IMG/VR virus record: IMGVR_UViG_3300032177_000087
Span: 1 to 20,488 of that record
Length of the DNA: 20,488 nucleotides
Source: a virus
Direction: 5' to 3' (one strand)
Position 1 is the stretch's first letter; each line of letters opens with the position of its first letter. Below, one piece after another: positions 11,005-20,409 of this stretch. The translations under genes and the position numbers were made by a program. The notes below the pieces were generated by a model. The model was not told where the DNA came from, made no database searches, and saw only the letters and a list, made by a program, of their open reading frames with translations.

Positions 11005-11079
11005 TGGAGCCCACGGTAGGCCTCGAACCCACGCGCAGGAGTTTACAAAACTCCGCTCTACCAACTGAGTTACGTGGGC
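11005..11079 (-). tRNA. tRNA-Thr (anticodon UGU), CCA encoded
   Basis: The acceptor arms GCCCACG and CGTGGGC pair fully, with discriminator U and an encoded CCA. The D loop is AGTTGGTA, the anticodon stem GGAGT/ACTCC holds loop TTTGTAA (anticodon TGT), and the T arm GTGGG/CCTAC holds TTCGAGG. Minor oddities are an A10.C25 mismatch in the D stem and no spacer base 26, giving 75 nt including CCA. It starts nine bases after the stop of the 11089-11610 gene, so it is probably cut from the structural transcript. It reads ACA and possibly other ACN codons. Confidence 0.92.
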
Positions 11080-11668: not shown

Positions 11669-12846
11669 TTACTTGGTTAGGTACAGTTCGCCCATGGCCG
11701 CAGACTTCAGGACTTTGTATCCGTACACGTTCAGGCCACGGACCAGGTCTCCGAAGGTACTCTCCGCCCGCAGACTTTCCATCTTGGTCAACTGAGCCGC
11801 AAAAGTCAGAGCGGACTTGTGAAGAAAGTAGGCGTACCAACAGGTCGTGCTGGTCCCGCTATCCGTCACCGAATAGAGCAGGTTGCTGGAAAAAATCGTG
11901 AAGTTGTCGATATTCCCTATTCTTCCATTTCGGAGAACTGATTTACCATCTCCGGTCAGGGAGGCATCTTTCAGATCGGACTTTTTGATCCGCCCAACCG
12001 CCCACGCGGGAAGGACCAAGGCCAGGTCTTCCGTGGGGATATTCTGCTCTTCGAGAACGGTACGGCAGTCCACGATGATATCAAGGGCGTTTTCCTTAGT
12101 GAACTGCAGGGGGGCCGTGGAGGCGCCCAACTGGAAATCGGCGGAAATACGGCCGGCCGCATTGCCTTTATTCTGAGCATGGGCCTGTCCCACCATTCCA
12201 GTCAGAATATCGCGGTCAACCGAGATCTTCATCTGGAAGCCCGCATCGTTTGACCAATCATCCATCAGCCGAATGTCGGTCTGGTGGAGAACGATGTCGT
12301 CACAGGTAAAACCAAAATATTTGCCTTTGTCGATGGTCAACTCGACAGAAGGGCTCTCGGGACGCTGATAGGTCAAATTCATCCCGATGCTATAATCGCT
12401 GATCGTGATGTCGGGGGTGGTTCTGATGTGAACTTTATCACCTATCCCCCGGATTTCGCCTTCATACAACCTGTTACTTTATGACCCTTGCGGGCGGGCG
12501 GTCATTTCTGTCGCCTCTGCATCTTTATTTATTCATGCAGTTCGGACTATCGCATCACCATAATGGCGTCCTCTCGTTTAGTCTCTCACGGTGCCCATTG
12601 GGCTTCCGCCTTGTTGCCCACATCCTGGGTTTTCAAGTCAATTAGAGAAGATTTTTCACGGACTACGAGTTAATCCGTGTTGCTAATGTCGGCCAGCACA
12701 CAAGCTGAATAAAACTTAATCAGAAGTTTTGCTGACCACACCTCCAAAATTCATTAGCAAATTTCTTATCCCCAAGGTGGTTAAGGGATAAACATTGATG
12801 TTCCTGAAGCGTTATAAATCGGATGTCCACCAGTTACGGGGTACAT
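11669..12846 (-). CDS. Major capsid protein (P22 coat-like), split into three exons
   Basis: Read straight, the gene is broken. ATG at 12846 (SD AAGGAG) gives 21 codons ending TSMFIP and then TAA. Removing 12745-12783 and 12467-12672 gives one clean frame: exon 1 12784-12846 (21 aa), exon 2 12673-12744 (24 aa), exon 3 11669-12466 (265 aa), 310 aa in all, with both joins at codon boundaries. The joins read FIP|EVWSAKLLIKFY and ADISNTD|YEGEIRGIGDKVHI, which is the normal N-arm of phage coat proteins of the P22-like HK97-fold group. The rest (IRTTPDITISDYSIG, VELTIDKGKYFGF, a long helix with DRDILTGM, C-terminal KVLKSAAMGELYLTK) is intact. It follows the scaffold-like gene by 25 bases. Splicing is inferred, not shown. 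Confidence 0.88.
12467..12672 (-). ncRNA. Compact group I intron (206 nt) in the major capsid gene
   Basis: Numbering from the 5' end (12672). P1: exon CACGGAT with intron 10-16 (GTCCGTG), U.G at the splice site. P10: intron 5-9 (TCGTA) with exon 3 TATGA. P3: 24-29/99-104. P4: 36-39/60-63 with AAAA joiner. P5: 44-47/53-56. P6: 64-67/82-85, P6a 70-73/77-80. P7: GACTA 90-94/TAGTC 124-128, the conserved guanosine-site helix. P8: 105-109/113-117. P9: CTGCAT 133-138/151-156. A further stem pairs 168-173/187-192. The last base is G, as required. No endonuclease ORF is present, so it is immobile or depends on one elsewhere. The subclass is not assigned; P2 seems absent. Confidence 0.88.
12673..12744 (-). 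other. Isolated middle exon of the capsid gene
   Basis: Twenty-four codons beginning GAG GTG TGG and ending ACG GAT encode EVWSAKLLIKFY, SAC and VLADISNTD, the conserved N-arm segment between the two inserts. It is in frame with both flanking exons only when both inserts are removed, and skipping it would delete a conserved part of the coat protein. Confidence 0.85.
12745..12783 (-). other. 39-nt insert with group I-type P1 and P10 but no core
   Basis: The insert follows codon CCT of TSMFIP and starts with an in-frame TAA; three more in-frame stops follow. Numbering from 12783: exon TTATCCCT pairs with insert 11-18 (GGGGATAA) in eight base pairs, ending in a U.G pair exactly at the boundary. 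Insert 5-10 (CACCTT) pairs with the first six bases of exon 2 (GAGGTG). The last base is G. This is the layout of a group I internal guide with P1, P10 and terminal G. The complete intron next door has guide elements at almost the same positions and shares the TAAC start and TTG end. Bases 20-38 can form a weak second hairpin. No P3-P8 is possible in 39 nt. Confidence 0.7.
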
Positions 12847-12871
12847 TGATAATTCTCCTTCTTAGGGGAGC

Positions 12872-13969
12872 TTATTTGTTCAGGATCTTCCCGGCCGATA
12901 CGGCGGCGTCTATTTTGGCTTGGATGACTTTTTGTTCCGCCTCCTTGCCTCGATATTTTCCGGTCACAACGTCCTGAGAAAATTTCCGAATAAAGCTCCT
13001 GGCAACGGGCTCTGGTCCCTGATTTTGCTGGCTTACCGCCCCGGGCCCCGATGGACCACTTCCGGGGGCGACGTACCGGGCATTGGGATTTTGAGCCGGA
13101 GTTAATACTTGCGCAGGAGGCACGGCCATTTCTTTCTTGAAATCGGATAGCAGATTAATCACTACCTGATGATCGAACTTTGCGCTTGCAGTTCGTAGGG
13201 CCATGAGTTTTGACAACCCATAGGTGTCGGTTTTGCTCAACCAGACTGGCCATCGTGGATCTCCCTGGCAAATAGTCTCCCAGTCGGGGTGCATATCGGC
13301 GATGGTCCTAGAAAAAGTTTCCTGCTTCGTATTGGAATTGATTTTCTCAATAGAAGCGATCTTCTCGTCTGATTTCTTGGTTAGTTGAGTACCGAAATCG
13401 TCCAGGATCTTTGACATGGGACCAAAAACGTCCGGAAAGTTCTCCCTGAAGTTTTTTATGGTCTCGTCGGGGCTGGACTTTAACGCCTCACTGAATACCG
13501 ACGTTGCCGGGGTTGCCGGCGTGGTAACGGCCGCCGTCATGGCCGGTTGTATGGCCGTATTGGCTATCTGCGCATTCAGGTCGGCGATCTGGTTCTCCAG
13601 GTATTGCATCCGATAAGTAAGCCGTGGAACCTCCGCGTCATACTTTCCCTGCAACACGCTGTACCGCTGTTTGTTCTTGTCGCATTCGGGACAGGCCGCA
13701 GGGACCGGTATAGGCGGTGCTGGCGTCACTGGCTCCGGTGGCGCTTGCAACGCGGGAGCCGGGGGAAAATTGTCTTGATTGGCATTGACGTATTCCGCCG
13801 GGTCCGGAGTAACAGGAGCGGGTGCGGGAGCTACGGGGGGAGCCGCCAGGGGGTCGGTGATCCCGGGAGGTGTCACAGCCGGTGGTTGGTTTTGCGACAC
13901 TCCAAATTGCTTCAGTAATTCGTCTGCCCGTCTTCCTTGTTCTTCAACTGCTCTTGGTAATCTTGCCAT
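12872..13969 (-). CDS. Scaffolding-like head assembly protein
   Basis: 365 residues from ATG at 13969 (AAAGGA eight bases upstream); the frame could extend to 14137 but that would run into the 14103-14158 stem-loop and has no SD. After MARLPRAVEEQGRRADELL comes a long Pro/Ala-rich, likely disordered part to about residue 110. A heptad-like coiled coil follows (RLTYRMQYLENQIADLNAQI), then a helical region with DETIKNFRENFPDVF and MHPDWETICQGDPRWPVWL, and a basic C-terminal helix (GKYRGKEAEQKVIQAKIDAA). This design, directly upstream of the coat gene, is typical of phage scaffolding proteins that guide procapsid assembly. The basic C-terminus is where scaffolds usually bind coat. No protease motif is seen. 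Confidence 0.75.
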   Translation of the reverse strand: MARLPRAVEEQGRRADELLKQFGVSQNQPPAVTPPGITDPLAAPPVAPAPAPVTPDPAEYVNANQDNFPPAPALQAPPEPVTPAPPIPVPAACPECDKNKQRYSVLQGKYDAEVPRLTYRMQYLENQIADLNAQIANTAIQPAMTAAVTTPATPATSVFSEALKSSPDETIKNFRENFPDVFGPMSKILDDFGTQLTKKSDEKIASIEKINSNTKQETFSRTIADMHPDWETICQGDPRWPVWLSKTDTYGLSKLMALRTASAKFDHQVVINLLSDFKKEMAVPPAQVLTPAQNPNARYVAPGSGPSGPGAVSQQNQGPEPVARSFIRKFSQDVVTGKYRGKEAEQKVIQAKIDAAVSAGKILNK

Positions 13970-14223: not shown

Positions 14224-14300
14224 TGGTTGCGAGGGCCGGATTTGGACCGGCGACCTTCGGGGTATGAGCCCGACGAGCTACCAGGCTGCTCCACCTCGCG
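14224..14300 (-). tRNA. Initiator tRNA-fMet (CAU), CCA encoded, unusual T loop
   Basis: 77 nt with all hallmarks of a bacterial initiator. The acceptor is CGCGAGG/CCTCGCA with a C1.A72 mismatch, the D stem GAGC/GCTC has A11-U24, and the anticodon stem TCGGG/CCCGA carries the three G-C pairs next to loop CTCATAC. The discriminator is A, and CCA is encoded. The T stem GCCGG/CCGGC is perfect, but the loop is TCCAAAT, so position 55, normally U (pseudouridine), is C. It sits 25 bases after the holin stop. A phage initiator tRNA could favour translation start in a host whose own pool is limiting or attacked. Confidence 0.93.
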
Positions 14301-14325: not shown

Positions 14326-14745
14326 TTATCCACTTTTCGCGACGCCATTCTTGGTCTTGTCATAGCTTCTCAAAGCCCCAAGGCCCAACATGCCAAGCAA
14401 CAGCGTCATTAACTCGCCCATGTCGAGGGCGGGCATATTGTTGACGACGCCGACAACATTCAGCAACCAAGCGAGGAAAGGTTGAAGGACGTAGTTGTAA
14501 GCTAGGGAGGCTCCGCAAACCCAGCCGATAGCCGGTCGCCAGCCTGCCACAAACACCGACTCGTGTTTGGCTTCCTCGATGTTTACTTCGATCTGCTTCA
14601 CCACTACCTGGAAGCTCTGTGTAAGCTCCTGGGTTAGCAGCAGAAACTTATTCTTTTCCGCCTCGGTTTTGTCCGGCCAAATTTTGTTGATTGCTGATTC
14701 GGCCAGATTGGCAATCGATCCAATACCTGTAAGATCTAGTCCCAT
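14326..14745 (-). CDS. Holin, 3TM type (GTA_holin_3TM-like)
   Basis: 139 residues from ATG at 14745, which overlaps the protease stop as TGATG; the upstream in-frame ATG at 14799 lies inside the protease gene. The N-terminal half is an amphipathic helical region (AESAINKIWPDKTEAEKNKF, then LTQELTQSFQVVVKQIEVNI). Residues about 70-120 hold the membrane part: GWRPAIGWVCGASLAYNYVL, FLAWLLNVVGVV and ELMTLLLGMLGLGAL. The GWRP-W-C-A-Y pattern is characteristic of the 3TM holin family first named from gene-transfer agents. It would permeabilise the inner membrane at lysis, next to the M15 peptidase and secreted protease. Confidence 0.82.
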   Translation of the reverse strand: MGLDLTGIGSIANLAESAINKIWPDKTEAEKNKFLLLTQELTQSFQVVVKQIEVNIEEAKHESVFVAGWRPAIGWVCGASLAYNYVLQPFLAWLLNVVGVVNNMPALDMGELMTLLLGMLGLGALRSYDKTKNGVAKSG

Positions 14746-15392
14746 CAAATCACCCCATCCGCAAAACCGTACTGGATAGCTTCCGCAGAAGTCAACCAAA
14801 ATTCCTTGCTGCGAATCCTCGTATTCAATTCTTCCTTGGAAATTTTGCTCTTCGCCACGATGTAAGAGTTTACGTTGTCTTGAATTTTTCTAAAGATCAC
14901 GGCCTCCTCTTCTTTAGAAGAAGGTGTCTCGATTGCTAAAAATTTGAGTGACCACATCTCATGAAACATCACGATAGCGTACTTATCAATGAAGCGATGT
15001 CCCGGGGATCCACTCAGCATAACAAGAAGCCCCGCCGATGCAATAATGCTGTGGGCTCGCATCTCTACAATTTTTCCTTCATTCTGGACAATATTAAAAA
15101 GGGAGATAATCCCCATGGCGTCGAACAGACTTCCCCCAAAGGAATACAAGTCCACTACCAGAGTGTCATAAGCATACCGGTCGAGAATTTGCAGATCCCG
15201 GCGAGTGCTTTCGTAATCCATTTTTTGGATAGAGATGTTAGCAACTTTTCCGTCAAGGCGGATGTGATTTGGAAGAATGACGCTTCCGTATTTTGGAGGA
15301 GGAGCGGACTTCTCCTGTGCCCAAGTCCAATTAAACGAACCCCCGCACAACACAAACACCAGAATCAAAATCACGGACAAAAATCTTTTCAT
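14745..15392 (-). CDS. Secreted ClpP-fold serine protease
   Basis: 215 residues, ATG with GGGAGGG upstream. Residues 1-26 form a signal peptide: KR, a hydrophobic core (FLSVILILVFVLCGG) and a likely cut after TWA. The rest has the ClpP/crotonase-type fold signs: YDTLVVDLYSFGGSLFDAMG with the GGS oxyanion segment (86-88), the Ser motif HSIIASAGLLVML with Ser119, and the His motif IVMFHEMW with His144. The C-terminal WLTSAEAIQYGFADGVI is the usual ending of ClpP-like proteins. Phage ClpP-like proteases usually mature capsids in the cytoplasm. Here export and position between endopeptidase and holin suggest periplasmic action, perhaps in lysis or envelope remodelling. Confidence 0.78.
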   Translation of the reverse strand: MKRFLSVILILVFVLCGGSFNWTWAQEKSAPPPKYGSVILPNHIRLDGKVANISIQKMDYESTRRDLQILDRYAYDTLVVDLYSFGGSLFDAMGIISLFNIVQNEGKIVEMRAHSIIASAGLLVMLSGSPGHRFIDKYAIVMFHEMWSLKFLAIETPSSKEEEAVIFRKIQDNVNSYIVAKSKISKEELNTRIRSKEFWLTSAEAIQYGFADGVI

Positions 15393-15408: not shown

Positions 15409-15816
15409 TTATTTTAAGAACACCACTTGTTGCGGATGATTCTCGTCTCTGGCCACATCTGCGTGGAGCCAGCCCGGGGCCACCTCAAGACGGTTAAATT
15501 GCCCCAGCAAGAGGCCCAGCAAAACGAATCTCTTGTGAGAATCCGTACAGGAAATGTCGGCGGCTTCGCCAACTTTCTTTTCCGTTGTCAGGTGGGCCGA
15601 ATCCGGCTTGCCCCCAACCTCGGCATTGTGTCTGGGGCAGCGACACACACAGTTAAGATTTAACCCTTCTTTGAAAACCGCAAAATATTGGTCTCGGGCC
15701 ACCTGCAATTTACACATAAGTTCCATACTCACCAGACATATGCCACAGCACTTGCAGGCGACTTCGGAACGAGAAAAATTCGCGGTGATCATGTCACTTG
15801 GTTGCATTGTGCCCAT
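15409..15816 (-). CDS. Peptidase M15A endolysin (peptidoglycan endopeptidase)
   Basis: 135 residues, ATG with AGGAGA upstream. The M15A order is clear: FSRSEVACKCCG near the start, CRCPRHNAEVGGKPDSAH, EAADI and WLHADV. Predicted zinc ligands are His75, Asp87 and His118. Relatives cut peptide cross-links of peptidoglycan (D-Ala-D-Ala carboxypeptidase or L-Ala-D-Glu endopeptidase type), some as phage lysins. No signal peptide is present, so it needs the holin at 14326-14745 to reach the wall. Several extra cysteines (C21, C23, C24, C27, C56, C58, C60) form a CxCC-type cluster found in many phage M15A proteins. Confidence 0.85.
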   Translation of the reverse strand: MGTMQPSDMITANFSRSEVACKCCGICLVSMELMCKLQVARDQYFAVFKEGLNLNCVCRCPRHNAEVGGKPDSAHLTTEKKVGEAADISCTDSHKRFVLLGLLLGQFNRLEVAPGWLHADVARDENHPQQVVFLK

Positions 15817-16773: not shown

Positions 16774-18639
16774 TTAATAAAACGGAATGATCACATTGCC
16801 AGATACCAACAAAATCTTAATCGGAGACGTTGGGGGAGCGCTTGTTGTTAAAACGACATTCCCAACTGCCTGCGCCTGAGAGCCGCCAGCGATCGCTAAA
16901 TTGTGATTCTGGGTAAGAATCACATCTTCAGCCGTCTGAGCCTGCGCTCCACTTGCCACGGTCAGCTTATGAACCTGACTGAGTACAACAGCATTGACGG
17001 ATTGGCCCTGCGTTCCATCGGCTACAATAAGAAACGTGGCCAGATCTAAATCAACATTGTCAACTTCCTGCGATTGCAGGCCAGATGCCACGGCTAGATT
17101 GTGGGCCTGAGTCAGTGCGACATTTCCAACGGCCTGGGCCTGGACTCCACCAGCAACGGCCAAATTATGATTTTGGGTAAGAATCACATCTTCAGCCGCT
17201 TGGGCCTGTGCCCCACTTGCCACCGTCAGGGTATGGGCCTGGGTGAGTAGGACGTTGCCAACGCTCTGCCCTTGATTGCTATCGGCTACCGCAAGATGAT
17301 GGGCTTGAGTTAAAACCGCATTATCGACCGTCTGGGCTTGAAGACCATTATTGACGGCCAGATTATGGGCCTGGGTCAAAACCACATTTCCGACTGCTTG
17401 CCCCTGAAGACCATCAGCCAGAGTTAAAATGTGCGCCTGAGTAAGAACTGCATTCCCAACTGCCTGCGTCTGAACACCACCAGCTACGGCAATATTGTGA
17501 ACCTGAGTTAAAACTTCGTTATTTACTGCTTGGCCCTGGGTGCCATCGGCAACGATCAAATCCACACCCGCAGAATACAATGTTTTTAAAGCTGCAAAAC
17601 TATGATTGCCTATCACAAGAACTGGGGAAGACTTTGTGGTAAGAGAACCATCTCCGACACCACCTTCACTATTTTCTCCCCAACCCCAAACTTGCCCATT
17701 TTCTTTCCTAGCAAATGGGGCATATTGTGTCGTTTCAAGCTCAACAAAAACATGACTACCTACTACAAGAACTGGAGAAGACCTATGAGTTACAGTATTA
17801 TCTCCAAGTTGGCCATAACTATTAAGTCCCCATGCCCAAATAGAACCATCTACTTTTCTAGCTGTATTAAAATAATATCCAGATGAAATTTGAGTGAAAG
17901 AATGATCACCTACTACAAGAATTGGAGAGGATACTTTATCATTAGCATTATTCCCAAGTTGACCGTATGCTCCATTACCCCAAGCCCAGACTTGACCATT
18001 AGCTTTCCTTGCAAGAGTAGTTAACATCCCCCCCGAGATTTCTACAAAACTATGCCCTCCTACTACAAGAACCGGAGAGGACCTATCAGTTATAGTGTTA
18101 TCGGCAAGTTGCCCTACACCATTATATCCCCAAGTCCAAACAGAGCCGTCCGCTTTTAACGCTGTACTATAACAATAACCTCCACAAACTTGAATAAAAC
18201 TATGACCACCTATTACAAGAATTGGAGAAGACTTACTCTCTGTAGTTCCATCTCCTAACTCCCCATATGTATTTAACCCCCAAGACCAAACTTCCCCATT
18301 TGCTTTTCTTGCCAAACAATGAGTATATCCACCTGAAACTTCTACAAAACTATGACCACCTATTACAAGAATTGGAGAAGACTTACTCTCTGTAGTTCCA
18401 TCTCCTAACTCCCCATGTGTATTTAACCCCCAAGACCAAACTTCCCCATTTGCTTTTCTTGCTACAGTAAAATTATGCCCCCCAGAAAATTCCTTAAAGT
18501 TATGACTACCAATTACCAAAACAGGTGAGGATGTATCAGTCCTAGTACCATCCCCACGTTGACCGCTACCATTTCGTCCCCATGTCCATAAAGATCCGTC
18601 ACTTTTTAATGCCCCTGAAGTATGATTTGGTGCTGCCAT
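16774..18639 (-). CDS. RCC1-like seven-bladed propeller protein with eleven 22-residue repeats
   Basis: 621 residues, ATG with AGGGGA upstream. Residues 1 to about 355 are seven RCC1-type blades of about 50 residues, each with a core like GEVWSWGLNTYGELGDGT and a following SSPVLVIGGHSF; seven is the number needed to close an RCC1 propeller. From about 362 to 603 follow eleven tandem 22-residue repeats of the form LAVAGGVQAQAVGNVVLTQ plus a short H-x turn, a beta repeat common in phage fibre-like proteins. A hydrophobic tail ends the protein (IKILLVSGNVIIPFY). A surface protein for host binding is likely, inferred from repeats and context. The propeller part is much more AT-rich than the repeat part, which suggests two origins. 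Confidence 0.8.
   Translation of the reverse strand: MAAPNHTSGALKSDGSLWTWGRNGSGQRGDGTRTDTSSPVLVIGSHNFKEFSGGHNFTVARKANGEVWSWGLNTHGELGDGTTESKSSPILVIGGHSFVEVSGGYTHCLARKANGEVWSWGLNTYGELGDGTTESKSSPILVIGGHSFIQVCGGYCYSTALKADGSVWTWGYNGVGQLADNTITDRSSPVLVVGGHSFVEISGGMLTTLARKANGQVWAWGNGAYGQLGNNANDKVSSPILVVGDHSFTQISSGYYFNTARKVDGSIWAWGLNSYGQLGDNTVTHRSSPVLVVGSHVFVELETTQYAPFARKENGQVWGWGENSEGGVGDGSLTTKSSPVLVIGNHSFAALKTLYSAGVDLIVADGTQGQAVNNEVLTQVHNIAVAGGVQTQAVGNAVLTQAHILTLADGLQGQAVGNVVLTQAHNLAVNNGLQAQTVDNAVLTQAHHLAVADSNQGQSVGNVLLTQAHTLTVASGAQAQAAEDVILTQNHNLAVAGGVQAQAVGNVALTQAHNLAVASGLQSQEVDNVDLDLATFLIVADGTQGQSVNAVVLSQVHKLTVASGAQAQTAEDVILTQNHNLAIAGGSQAQAVGNVVLTTSAPPTSPIKILLVSGNVIIPFY
16815..17548 (-). repeat. 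Eleven tandem 66-bp coding repeats
   Basis: DNA for the 22-residue repeats of the RCC1 protein. Units are diverged, but some pairs are close: the stretch from 16912 (GTAAGAATCACATCTTCAGC) recurs at 17178. Copy number could change by recombination, altering the length of the C-terminal stalk. Confidence 0.75.
18196..18462 (-). repeat. Near-identical 117-bp direct repeat, 150-bp period (RCC1 blades 2 and 3)
   Basis: 18196-18312 and 18346-18462 are identical over 117 bases except for a/g at 18267/18417, which changes Tyr to His in the blade. The 150-base offset equals one RCC1 blade of 50 residues. The other blades are far more diverged, so this is a recent duplication or gene-conversion event. 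Confidence 0.85.
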
Positions 18640-18657: not shown

Positions 18658-20409
18658 TTACTGTAATTCTAAAACTGCCCTAACTACTCCATCAGACTCT
18701 AATAAGTATTTAGACCAATCTGGAACATCTACATCCGCACTCTGCTCATATAGCCGTGTTGGACTACTATCAATATCATCAATAACTAATCTCTTATATA
18801 ACGCCATCGTTTTATAAGACGGACTGCCATTCCGCCAAGGCAAAATATGATCTGGATGTTTACACGAAGGCAGAAGAACAATCCAGTTATCAAAAGCCCC
18901 GGCCAAATGAATTGGAGCAGAATCATTAGAAATTAAAACTTTAGACAATGAAAGTAGAGCCAAAGTTTGATCTAAACTTAATTTATTCCTCAAATCAATA
19001 GCCCCTTTTGGGCATATGACATCCACTGTTCCCCTTGACCCCGCTATAAAATCAGGAGGATCACCAGGAGAATCAAGACCAATGATACACAAATCTTTCC
19101 CGGCTTTTACTAGCCCATCAATAATCTGTTGCCAATATTCTACTGGAAACGTCTTTGATTGCCAATGTCTTCCGGGATGTATCACAATCATAGAATCAAA
19201 ATTGGTACGTCCAGTAATATCAAACATTCTATTCATTTCATCCAATTTTAAATCTATCTTGATTTGCCTATCAACAACTGGAAGTGTTCTTTTCATTAAA
19301 CAAATAGATGAATAATCCAACATATGAGACATTAAATGAGAACAAACAGCCCATTGGATACTTTTAGGACTTTTCAAAGTTTCAGTAATAAAATAAGGAG
19401 TATCATTATTTAAATCCGCTTTCCCATGCTCCACAATTCTTGTCCCATTACCATTCGCAAGATGTTTAAAAATAGTTGGAAAATGTGTAGCAATAACAAA
19501 TTCATCATGCGGATATAATTTATCTCGCATAAATCTGACAGCCGGTTCCGCACCTACTTGATCCCCTAGACCCCCCGAAACACTCACATAAATATGTTTT
19601 TTATAAACATAATTACCTTTATCATTTTTCCACTTATAAAGATCTTTTTTAATTAGTTCCAATACGATTGCCAAAGAAGGATAACCCGCGTAATGAATAA
19701 TGTAAGAATCATATCGTTCCTCTCCTGTTACACAATCAACACAAGTCATACGATTAAATTTATGTGGAAGTTCATAAACATCAATATTTTCCTTAGCAAT
19801 AATCATATTCAAATAACTTTGTTCATAAAAACTAAAAATTTCTTTTTCGGGTTTCCTAAACATATATTTATGCTTTTGTGAAATTACCATAACACCAGAA
19901 TTATAATATTTGCCGTTCCAAGATTGTAAAGTTTCCCCATATTGTTTACAAATATCAATCATTAATTCCTTACTACGATCCGTAAATGGGGCTTCATTAA
20001 AAACACCAAGTTTTTCTGGTGGAACAATTTTGAACAAATCTGGACAGTCATCTCTTATAATTAAATCACTATCAAGATAAAGAATCCTCTCATATTTTTC
20101 AAGAAGATTAAAAATTTGAAATTTTTCCCAATGAGGGGTTGTTTGTGAAATAAACTTTTTATTTATAACAACAAATTCTGCACCGATCTTTTTTGCGTAT
20201 TTTCTTAATATTGGATGCGTTAATTGCCCTATACGATGATAATCCGGGCCAATAGCGATAGTCAAAACAGCTTTTTTCCGTTTAATCATTTGGGCGTCAG
20301 CAACAGTAGTTACAGTACGAGTTGAGAGACTACTATCCTTGAATACAGTTGACGCATCCGTTCCATTCATGTGAAGCAAAAGTTTTGTGTAAGAATCATT
20401 CCCTGGCAT
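18658..20409 (-). CDS. Two-domain glycosyltransferase (GT8-like + GT9-like) with LamG-type N-terminal tag
   Basis: 583 residues. Residues 1-40 (SYTKLLLHMNGTDAS, then VFKDSS and VADAQ) are the opening of a phage LamG protein, not glycosyltransferase sequence. From Met41 (20289) a GT8-like domain runs to about 250: a strand start (KKAVLTIAIG), the DxD metal/nucleotide-sugar motif YLDSDL at 113-115, NSGVMV at 170-175 and HYAG at 239-242. From about 271 a GT9 (heptosyltransferase-like) domain follows: SGGLGDQVGAEPAVRF, HPGRHWQSKTFP at 411-422 and SNDSAPIHLAGAF at 494-506. It probably adds sugars to a host surface glycan or a virion protein. The gene is AT-rich. Its ATG abuts the upstream stop (TAAATG). 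Confidence 0.82.
   Translation of the reverse strand: MPGNDSYTKLLLHMNGTDASTVFKDSSLSTRTVTTVADAQMIKRKKAVLTIAIGPDYHRIGQLTHPILRKYAKKIGAEFVVINKKFISQTTPHWEKFQIFNLLEKYERILYLDSDLIIRDDCPDLFKIVPPEKLGVFNEAPFTDRSKELMIDICKQYGETLQSWNGKYYNSGVMVISQKHKYMFRKPEKEIFSFYEQSYLNMIIAKENIDVYELPHKFNRMTCVDCVTGEERYDSYIIHYAGYPSLAIVLELIKKDLYKWKNDKGNYVYKKHIYVSVSGGLGDQVGAEPAVRFMRDKLYPHDEFVIATHFPTIFKHLANGNGTRIVEHGKADLNNDTPYFITETLKSPKSIQWAVCSHLMSHMLDYSSICLMKRTLPVVDRQIKIDLKLDEMNRMFDITGRTNFDSMIVIHPGRHWQSKTFPVEYWQQIIDGLVKAGKDLCIIGLDSPGDPPDFIAGSRGTVDVICPKGAIDLRNKLSLDQTLALLSLSKVLISNDSAPIHLAGAFDNWIVLLPSCKHPDHILPWRNGSPSYKTMALYKRLVIDDIDSSPTRLYEQSADVDVPDWSKYLLESDGVVRAVLELQ

Follow-up and report, generated by a model that had tools for sequence, protein, structure and literature searches.

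A 39-nucleotide core-less insert with group I substrate signals in a phage coat gene, and a neighbouring group I intron that may excise it

How could a phage make its coat protein from a gene that is closed by an in-frame stop codon near its start? The question is raised by a viral DNA of 20,488 nucleotides (nt) (IMG/VR record IMGVR_UViG_3300032177_000087, positions 1 to 20,488; hereafter the window), in which a coat gene on the minus strand carries a 39-nt insert and, 72 nt downstream of it on the same RNA, the start of a complete group I intron. An earlier note on this DNA had proposed that the insert is a group I intron stripped of its catalytic core and excised by the ribozyme next to it. 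We find that the insert has the guide pairings (P1 and P10) and the terminal guanosine (omega-G) of a group I intron but not its core, and of the readings considered, removal of the insert by the adjacent ribozyme explains the locus best, although we hold it at somewhat less than even odds.

The insert and its edges

The coat gene starts with the ATG at 12846, and its first exon reads MYPVTGGHPIYNASGTSMFIP, followed by the in-frame TAA that opens the insert. As that TAA lies directly 3' of exon 1, the unexcised gene stops after 21 codons, as the earlier note had stated. The joined coat protein is a major head protein (phrog_267, E = 3 × 10−54), with a weak match to P22_CoatProtein below the Pfam cut-off. 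The gene is divided as follows:

12784..12846, minus strand: coat exon 1, 21 codons, ending SMFIP, last base U
12745..12783, minus strand: 39-nt insert, a core-less group I-like unit, in-frame TAA first and omega-G last
12673..12744, minus strand: coat exon 2, 24 codons, EVWSAKLLIKFYSACVLADISNTD
12467..12672, minus strand: complete 206-nt group I intron (the large intron), candidate ribozyme for both excisions
11669..12466, minus strand: coat exon 3 up to the stop codon

Excision of exactly 12783-12745 joins SMFIP to EVWSAKLLIKFYSACVLADISNTD in frame. This restoration of the frame, claimed before from the translation, has a counterpart at the DNA level in the relative L007, which carries the same junction uninterrupted (TTTATCCCT/GAAGTGTGG); the site in L006 is likewise uninterrupted. 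No alternative 39-base cut restores the L007 junction, a shift of one base in either direction breaks the codon series, and the edges of the insert are thus fixed to the base by the empty site of L007. The edges set in this way coincide with the rules for group I introns, with U.G at the exon end and omega-G at the insert end.

The insert is also unlikely to be an assembly error, because the identical 39 bases occupy the same place in two further IMG/VR contigs (3300031707_001539 and 3300036761_001680) that differ elsewhere. The three insert-bearing contigs are near-identical over about 3 kb around the coat gene and strongly different in the remainder, where they are mosaic (70-97% identity). 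A full intron at the same coat codon in other phages, which the earlier note had thought worth seeking, was not found: about 170 coat loci contained no other insert or full-length intron at this codon, a degenerate-gap scan for short inserts at FIP/E (phenylalanine codon TTT only) returned none further, and a 15-base guide scan returned 51 stretches, of which only the two known contigs were relevant, with no full-length progenitor. When 124 loci were screened without bias for further short inserts that contain a stop codon, only off-frame noise came back; as evidence of absence this is weak, since the screen also missed the present insert, whose exon 1 is too short for it.

Substrate signals without a core

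The signals that would mark the insert as a substrate of group I splicing are the following:

12784..12792, minus strand: P1 5' strand, the last 9 bases of exon 1, TTTATCCCT
12765..12773, minus strand: P1 3' strand of the insert guide, GGGGATAAG, its first G opposite the splice-site U
12774..12779, minus strand: P10 strand of the insert guide, CACCTT
12739..12744, minus strand: P10 partner, the first six exon-2 bases, GAGGTG
12745..12747, minus strand: UU and omega-G of the insert, compatible with P9.0 pairing to the J7/9 AA of the large intron

In P1, the end of exon 1 pairs with nt 11-19 of the insert through 8 base pairs (bp) and a terminal U.G (9 pairs), and the U.G sits exactly at the last base of exon 1, as at group I splice sites. 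In P10, which is directly adjacent (spacer 0), nt 5-10 of the insert pair with exon-2 bases from +1 through 6 bp, the first of which is G.U. The last base of the insert is a G preceded by UU, and the insert has no J7/9 of its own. Both pairings had been described in the earlier note and hold up here, as does its comparison of the insert with the large intron: each begins with TAAC and ends with TTG, and the guide starts at nt 11 in the insert and at nt 10 in the large intron. In nine complete coat-gene group I introns from relatives and the window, P1 has 5-8 bp, the guide starts at nt 8-17 and the spacer is 0-1, a range to which the layout of the insert (9 bp, nt 11 and 0) is close. Phage coat-gene introns of the RF00028 type (the large intron and those of L006, L007, L015, L016, L018, L019, L023 and L026) share with the insert a P1 with U.G, an adjacent P10, a terminal omega-G and often an in-frame stop at the start; they differ from it in having P3-P8 and a length of about 200-1060 nt, compared with 39 nt and no core.

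Across 1.59 million positions of DNA from related phages, seven places offer P1/P10 pairing to the exact junction: the three copies of the insert, two antisense matches at the corresponding coat site of other phages, and two chance matches. The two unrelated matches correspond to a chance of roughly 4 × 10−5 of meeting this geometry in a 39-nt insert; base shuffles likewise give about 4 × 10−5, and a first-order Markov model of the insert itself gives 8 × 10−4. We also considered a simple inverted duplication as the origin of the complementarity. The guide has 14 bases complementary to the junction, of which two deviate from the exact reverse complement, and both of these lie opposite the junction and form G.U wobbles, as is expected of a group I splice site and not of a plain inverted duplication, which we reject as an explanation. 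The P1 of the insert and that of the large intron are both retained in the predicted fold of the whole precursor. With z = −0.19, the 86-nt segment as a whole has no exceptional stability, and the argument is thus one of geometry rather than of folding energy. Since the P10 of the insert fits exon 2 and not exon 3, the signals do not favour exon skipping.

The catalytic core (P3-P8, with the guanosine-binding P7) is missing from the insert, and the RF00028 match is confined to the downstream intron, with none on the insert. After P1, the predicted fold contains at most a weak A-U/G.U hairpin, with no G-C pair to hold a guanosine and no P7, and the last 20 nt are unfolded when taken alone. Nor does the insert have the P7 with a G-C pair and the pairing of mid-intron to 3' exon described for the small introns of the fungus Phialophora. 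A TTTGCT within 12745-12764 could pair with an AGCAAA of exon 2, a placement that resembles the Phialophora pairing and lies outside the favoured fold of the longer stretch. The claim that the insert keeps only what a group I intron contributes as substrate (P1, P10 and omega-G), without its core, is well supported. We do not class the insert as a group I intron, the defining catalytic feature being absent; it would work like the substrate part of one, and group I ancestry is very likely.

Two other readings were discarded. Matches to the last 20 nt, which might have pointed to a mobile family sharing the 3' part of the insert, belong to an unrelated conserved gene, and no bulge-helix-bulge fold of the archaeal splicing type was seen. 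The 3' half of the insert has a borderline similarity (p = 0.03-0.05) to P3-J3/4 of the large intron or of its relative in L137, for which we do not claim homology.

The neighbouring intron as candidate ribozyme, and its rivals

The match of the large intron to RF00028 spans the full model (E = 0.0012; its 23.1 bits fall short of the curated cut-off, 50), and P1, P3-P9, P10 and omega-G can all be placed in it. This match and the full set of core strands bear out the earlier description of a complete group I intron 72 bases downstream. The strands that matter here are:

12657..12668, minus strand: guide, with P10 strand TCGTA and P1 3' strand GTCCGTG
12645..12651, minus strand: P3 5' strand, pairing with 12569-12575
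12579..12583, minus strand: P7 5' strand, pairing with 12545-12549
12545..12549, minus strand: P7 3' strand
12541..12544, minus strand: J7/9 (CGAA), its AA being the P9.0 partner of UU-omega-G

The P9.0 pairing of group I introns joins J7/9 to the bases that precede omega-G. With dinucleotides assigned by hand, this pairing is obeyed in 7 of the 11 introns of our set, compared with 2.3 expected (permutation p = 7 × 10−5). The dinucleotides are AA:UU in the large intron and AG:CU in its closest relative, and the UU-G of the insert suits the AA in J7/9 of the large intron. That closest relative (L137, 5475-5675) is a compact group I intron with a closely related core in a different gene of another phage.

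We infer that the coat is produced, that the insert is removed from the RNA and that the large intron catalyses this removal; for excision by the downstream core, the argument draws on geometry, the compatible P9.0 dinucleotide and linkage. The insert would be the substrate half of a group I intron, composed of a guide (P1 and P10), UU and omega-G. The end of exon 1 and the insert guide would form P1, which would dock into the core of the large intron, either in cis within one transcript or in trans with a copy of the large intron that has already been excised. A guanosine would attack the U/U boundary, after which the omega-G of the insert would enter the guanosine site, where P9.0 (AA:UU) and P10 would hold it in place. 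Ligation of exon 1 to exon 2 would then restore FIP-EVW. The large intron would remove itself as well. In its fuller form, the proposal is that the insert is a natural non-autonomous group I intron that consists of substrate elements only and is kept in an essential gene because the downstream ribozyme excises both; we regard this form as plausible, at a chance a little further below even. It would then be, to our knowledge, the first natural case of a group I ribozyme removing a second, core-less intron, a step often imagined between self-splicing introns and a shared splicing machine.

The chemistry of excision in trans is feasible, because an engineered group I spliceozyme excises introns in trans both in vitro and in E. 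coli (PMC4094466). In this engineered Tetrahymena ribozyme and in trans excision-splicing, as in the scheme proposed here, a core removes a core-less intron through P1 and recognition of the 3' splice site; the spliceozyme, however, carries the guide itself and holds the 3' site through a long P9.2 duplex (PMC4094466), whereas here the insert carries the guide and shows no contacts of this kind beyond P10 and P9.0. If the proposal is correct, engineered trans excision becomes a natural process, with a bearing on how degenerate group I introns are removed elsewhere.

Several points weigh against shared use of one ribozyme. There are only three contigs, and because they are identical across the stretch from the insert to the large intron, they offer no compensatory changes and no independent test of whether the two elements need each other. 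P1 and P10 could also be relics of a once complete intron whose core has disappeared. Docking of an untethered P1 is weaker than that of a tethered one, and the coat protein must be made in large amounts. With G.U allowed, UU also pairs with several other J7/9 dinucleotides, and the P9.0 match is therefore modest support. Finally, the literature searched yielded no natural example of two introns served by a single group I core.

The strongest rival holds that the allele is dead: the insert would be a remnant of an intron that lost its core and is never removed, and the contigs would come from defective phages or from phages with a second coat copy elsewhere. The missing core and the possible fossil nature of P1 and P10 suit this reading, as do the identity of the three insert haplotypes over the whole stretch, so that the event could be recent, and the fragmentary state of IMG/VR contigs, which leaves room for a second coat gene. 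We nevertheless consider it unlikely. The same haplotype is found in three genomes that are mosaic elsewhere; exon 3 is open in all three insert-bearing contigs, with no frameshift or stop; and the ratio of nonsynonymous to synonymous substitution rates (dN/dS) between the window and L005 is 0.24, from only 20 changes that are in part probably recombinant. These observations make a coat-dead allele less likely, though the evidence is thin. The ratio is 0.14 between the window and L006 and 0.16 between the window and L007, and no second coat gene was seen in the available parts of the genomes.

Ribosomes might instead skip the insert, and bypassing of this kind, as in gene 60 of phage T4 (PMC5009743; NC_000866), is the main rival by analogy. 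Like the gene 60 gap, the insert is short, contains a stop codon and lies in an important phage gene; a TAA follows straight after the take-off codon (CCT here), and a stem-loop, predicted to have 9 bp, includes that codon. A review has suggested that the 50-nt gene 60 insert may be a degenerate group I intron (PMC5009743). The remaining features show the reverse pattern. Gene 60 has matched take-off and landing codons (GGA/GGA, our control), a long nascent-peptide signal and no P1/P10 geometry, whereas the insert has that geometry, its take-off and landing codons are unmatched (CCT and TTG), and only 21 codons precede it, compared with a signal 25-30 residues before the P site. The sole matched tRNA pair at this distance, ATC/ATT (Ile), would yield FI-L-EVW, but the predicted Leu is never seen at this position, where Pro stands in 104 of 113 motif matches. 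Moreover, P10 and omega-G would play no role. We judge bypassing improbable; were it to occur, the gene 60 insert would have one of its rare relatives here, and the view that such gaps are dead group I introns would gain support.

Marginally less probable still is group I excision by another ribozyme elsewhere in the phage or its host. The window and the other contigs are genome fragments, the coat genes of relatives are rich in group I introns, and the L137 intron shows that a relative of the large intron exists in another gene of another phage. In the window, however, no group I intron other than the neighbour was seen (12300-13000 being the part searched below the curated cut-off), and the neighbour lies near by on the same RNA with a J7/9 that suits the insert.

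An internal restart, with only the large intron spliced and translation beginning within the insert or exon 2 to give a coat that lacks its first 21 residues, is very improbable: TTG (the last codon of the insert) and a GTG are in frame with exon 2, but neither has a Shine-Dalgarno sequence at a usable distance before it, and the FIP motif, kept in nearly all relatives, would be lost. Least probable of all is that the insert and its flanks form a minimal self-splicing unit, as claimed for Phialophora introns of 63-75 nt, which were reported with only P1, P7 and P10; P1 and P10 are present here, but there is no P7 and no G-C pair for the guanosine, the last 20 nt do not fold alone, and 39 nt is well below 63.

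Known small introns and the history of the locus

Phialophora and lichen fungi have small introns of 56-81 nt that have been described as putative or degenerate members of group I, and one of them, PaSSU, was reported to splice in vitro (PMC3160393). The earlier note had placed the lower limit of natural group I introns at around 200 nt, a floor that these fungal group I-like introns show not to be absolute. They resemble the insert in being tiny, with a P1 with G.U, a P10 and most of the core missing; they keep P7 and the 3'-exon pairing and end in omega-U, whereas the insert lacks P7, ends in omega-G and sits in a protein gene, close to a complete group I intron. Group I introns of lichen ribosomal DNA (rDNA) lack sequences needed for catalysis and are nevertheless removed in vivo (PMC8527467); unlike the insert, they average about 230 nt, lie in rRNA and are thought to be removed by machinery of host protein. 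Natural trans-spliced split group I introns of organelles (for example PMC3873408) offer a likeness in that a core is assembled from separate RNA pieces; those are pieces of one intron, whereas in the present scheme an intron that is already complete would also act on another that has no core. The statement that no such case has been described therefore stands in part: tiny and degenerate fungal introns, the suggestion for gene 60 and engineered trans excision have all been described, whereas the literature searched contained neither one natural core serving two introns nor a protein gene in which a core-less unit lies beside a complete group I intron.

Coat genes of the phrog_267 type form a hot spot of group I introns, which occupy four or more nearby codons: NTD/Y (the window, L015 and L016), YEG/E (L006, L007, L018, L019, L023 and L026), KGKY/F (L007) and a site after SGKL (L078 and L091). 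Many of these introns carry endonuclease-like open reading frames, and L007 has two introns in one gene. Comparison of the window (12781-13822) with L007 (1-1042) shows 99.9% identity over 1042 bp, ending exactly at the 5' edge of the insert; beyond this edge, exon 2 and the first part of exon 3 are about 80% identical. Such a breakpoint is the footprint that would be expected if the insert, exon 2 and the large intron arrived jointly by homing-like conversion. Exon-2 base +3, which is paired in P10, is G in the window and A in L007. Taken with the breakpoint, this difference suggests a joint arrival of the insert and its P10 partner, with base +3 belonging to the arriving allele.

On either side of the coat region lie genes for tRNA-Thr (TGT, 11005-11079) and tRNA-Met (CAT, 14224-14300), both on the minus strand, and identity among the three insert-bearing contigs collapses just past tRNA-Thr. 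Further genes in the window include one for a Clp protease-like protein with a signal-like N-terminus (14745-15392, minus strand), close to genes for a GTA-type holin (14326-14799) and an M15 peptidase (15409-15816). A 583-residue protein (18658-20409, minus strand) combines glycosyltransferase family 8 and family 9 domains, and a 621-residue protein (16774-18639, minus strand), an unusual cargo for a phage, has seven RCC1 repeat matches followed by an apparent second repeat type.
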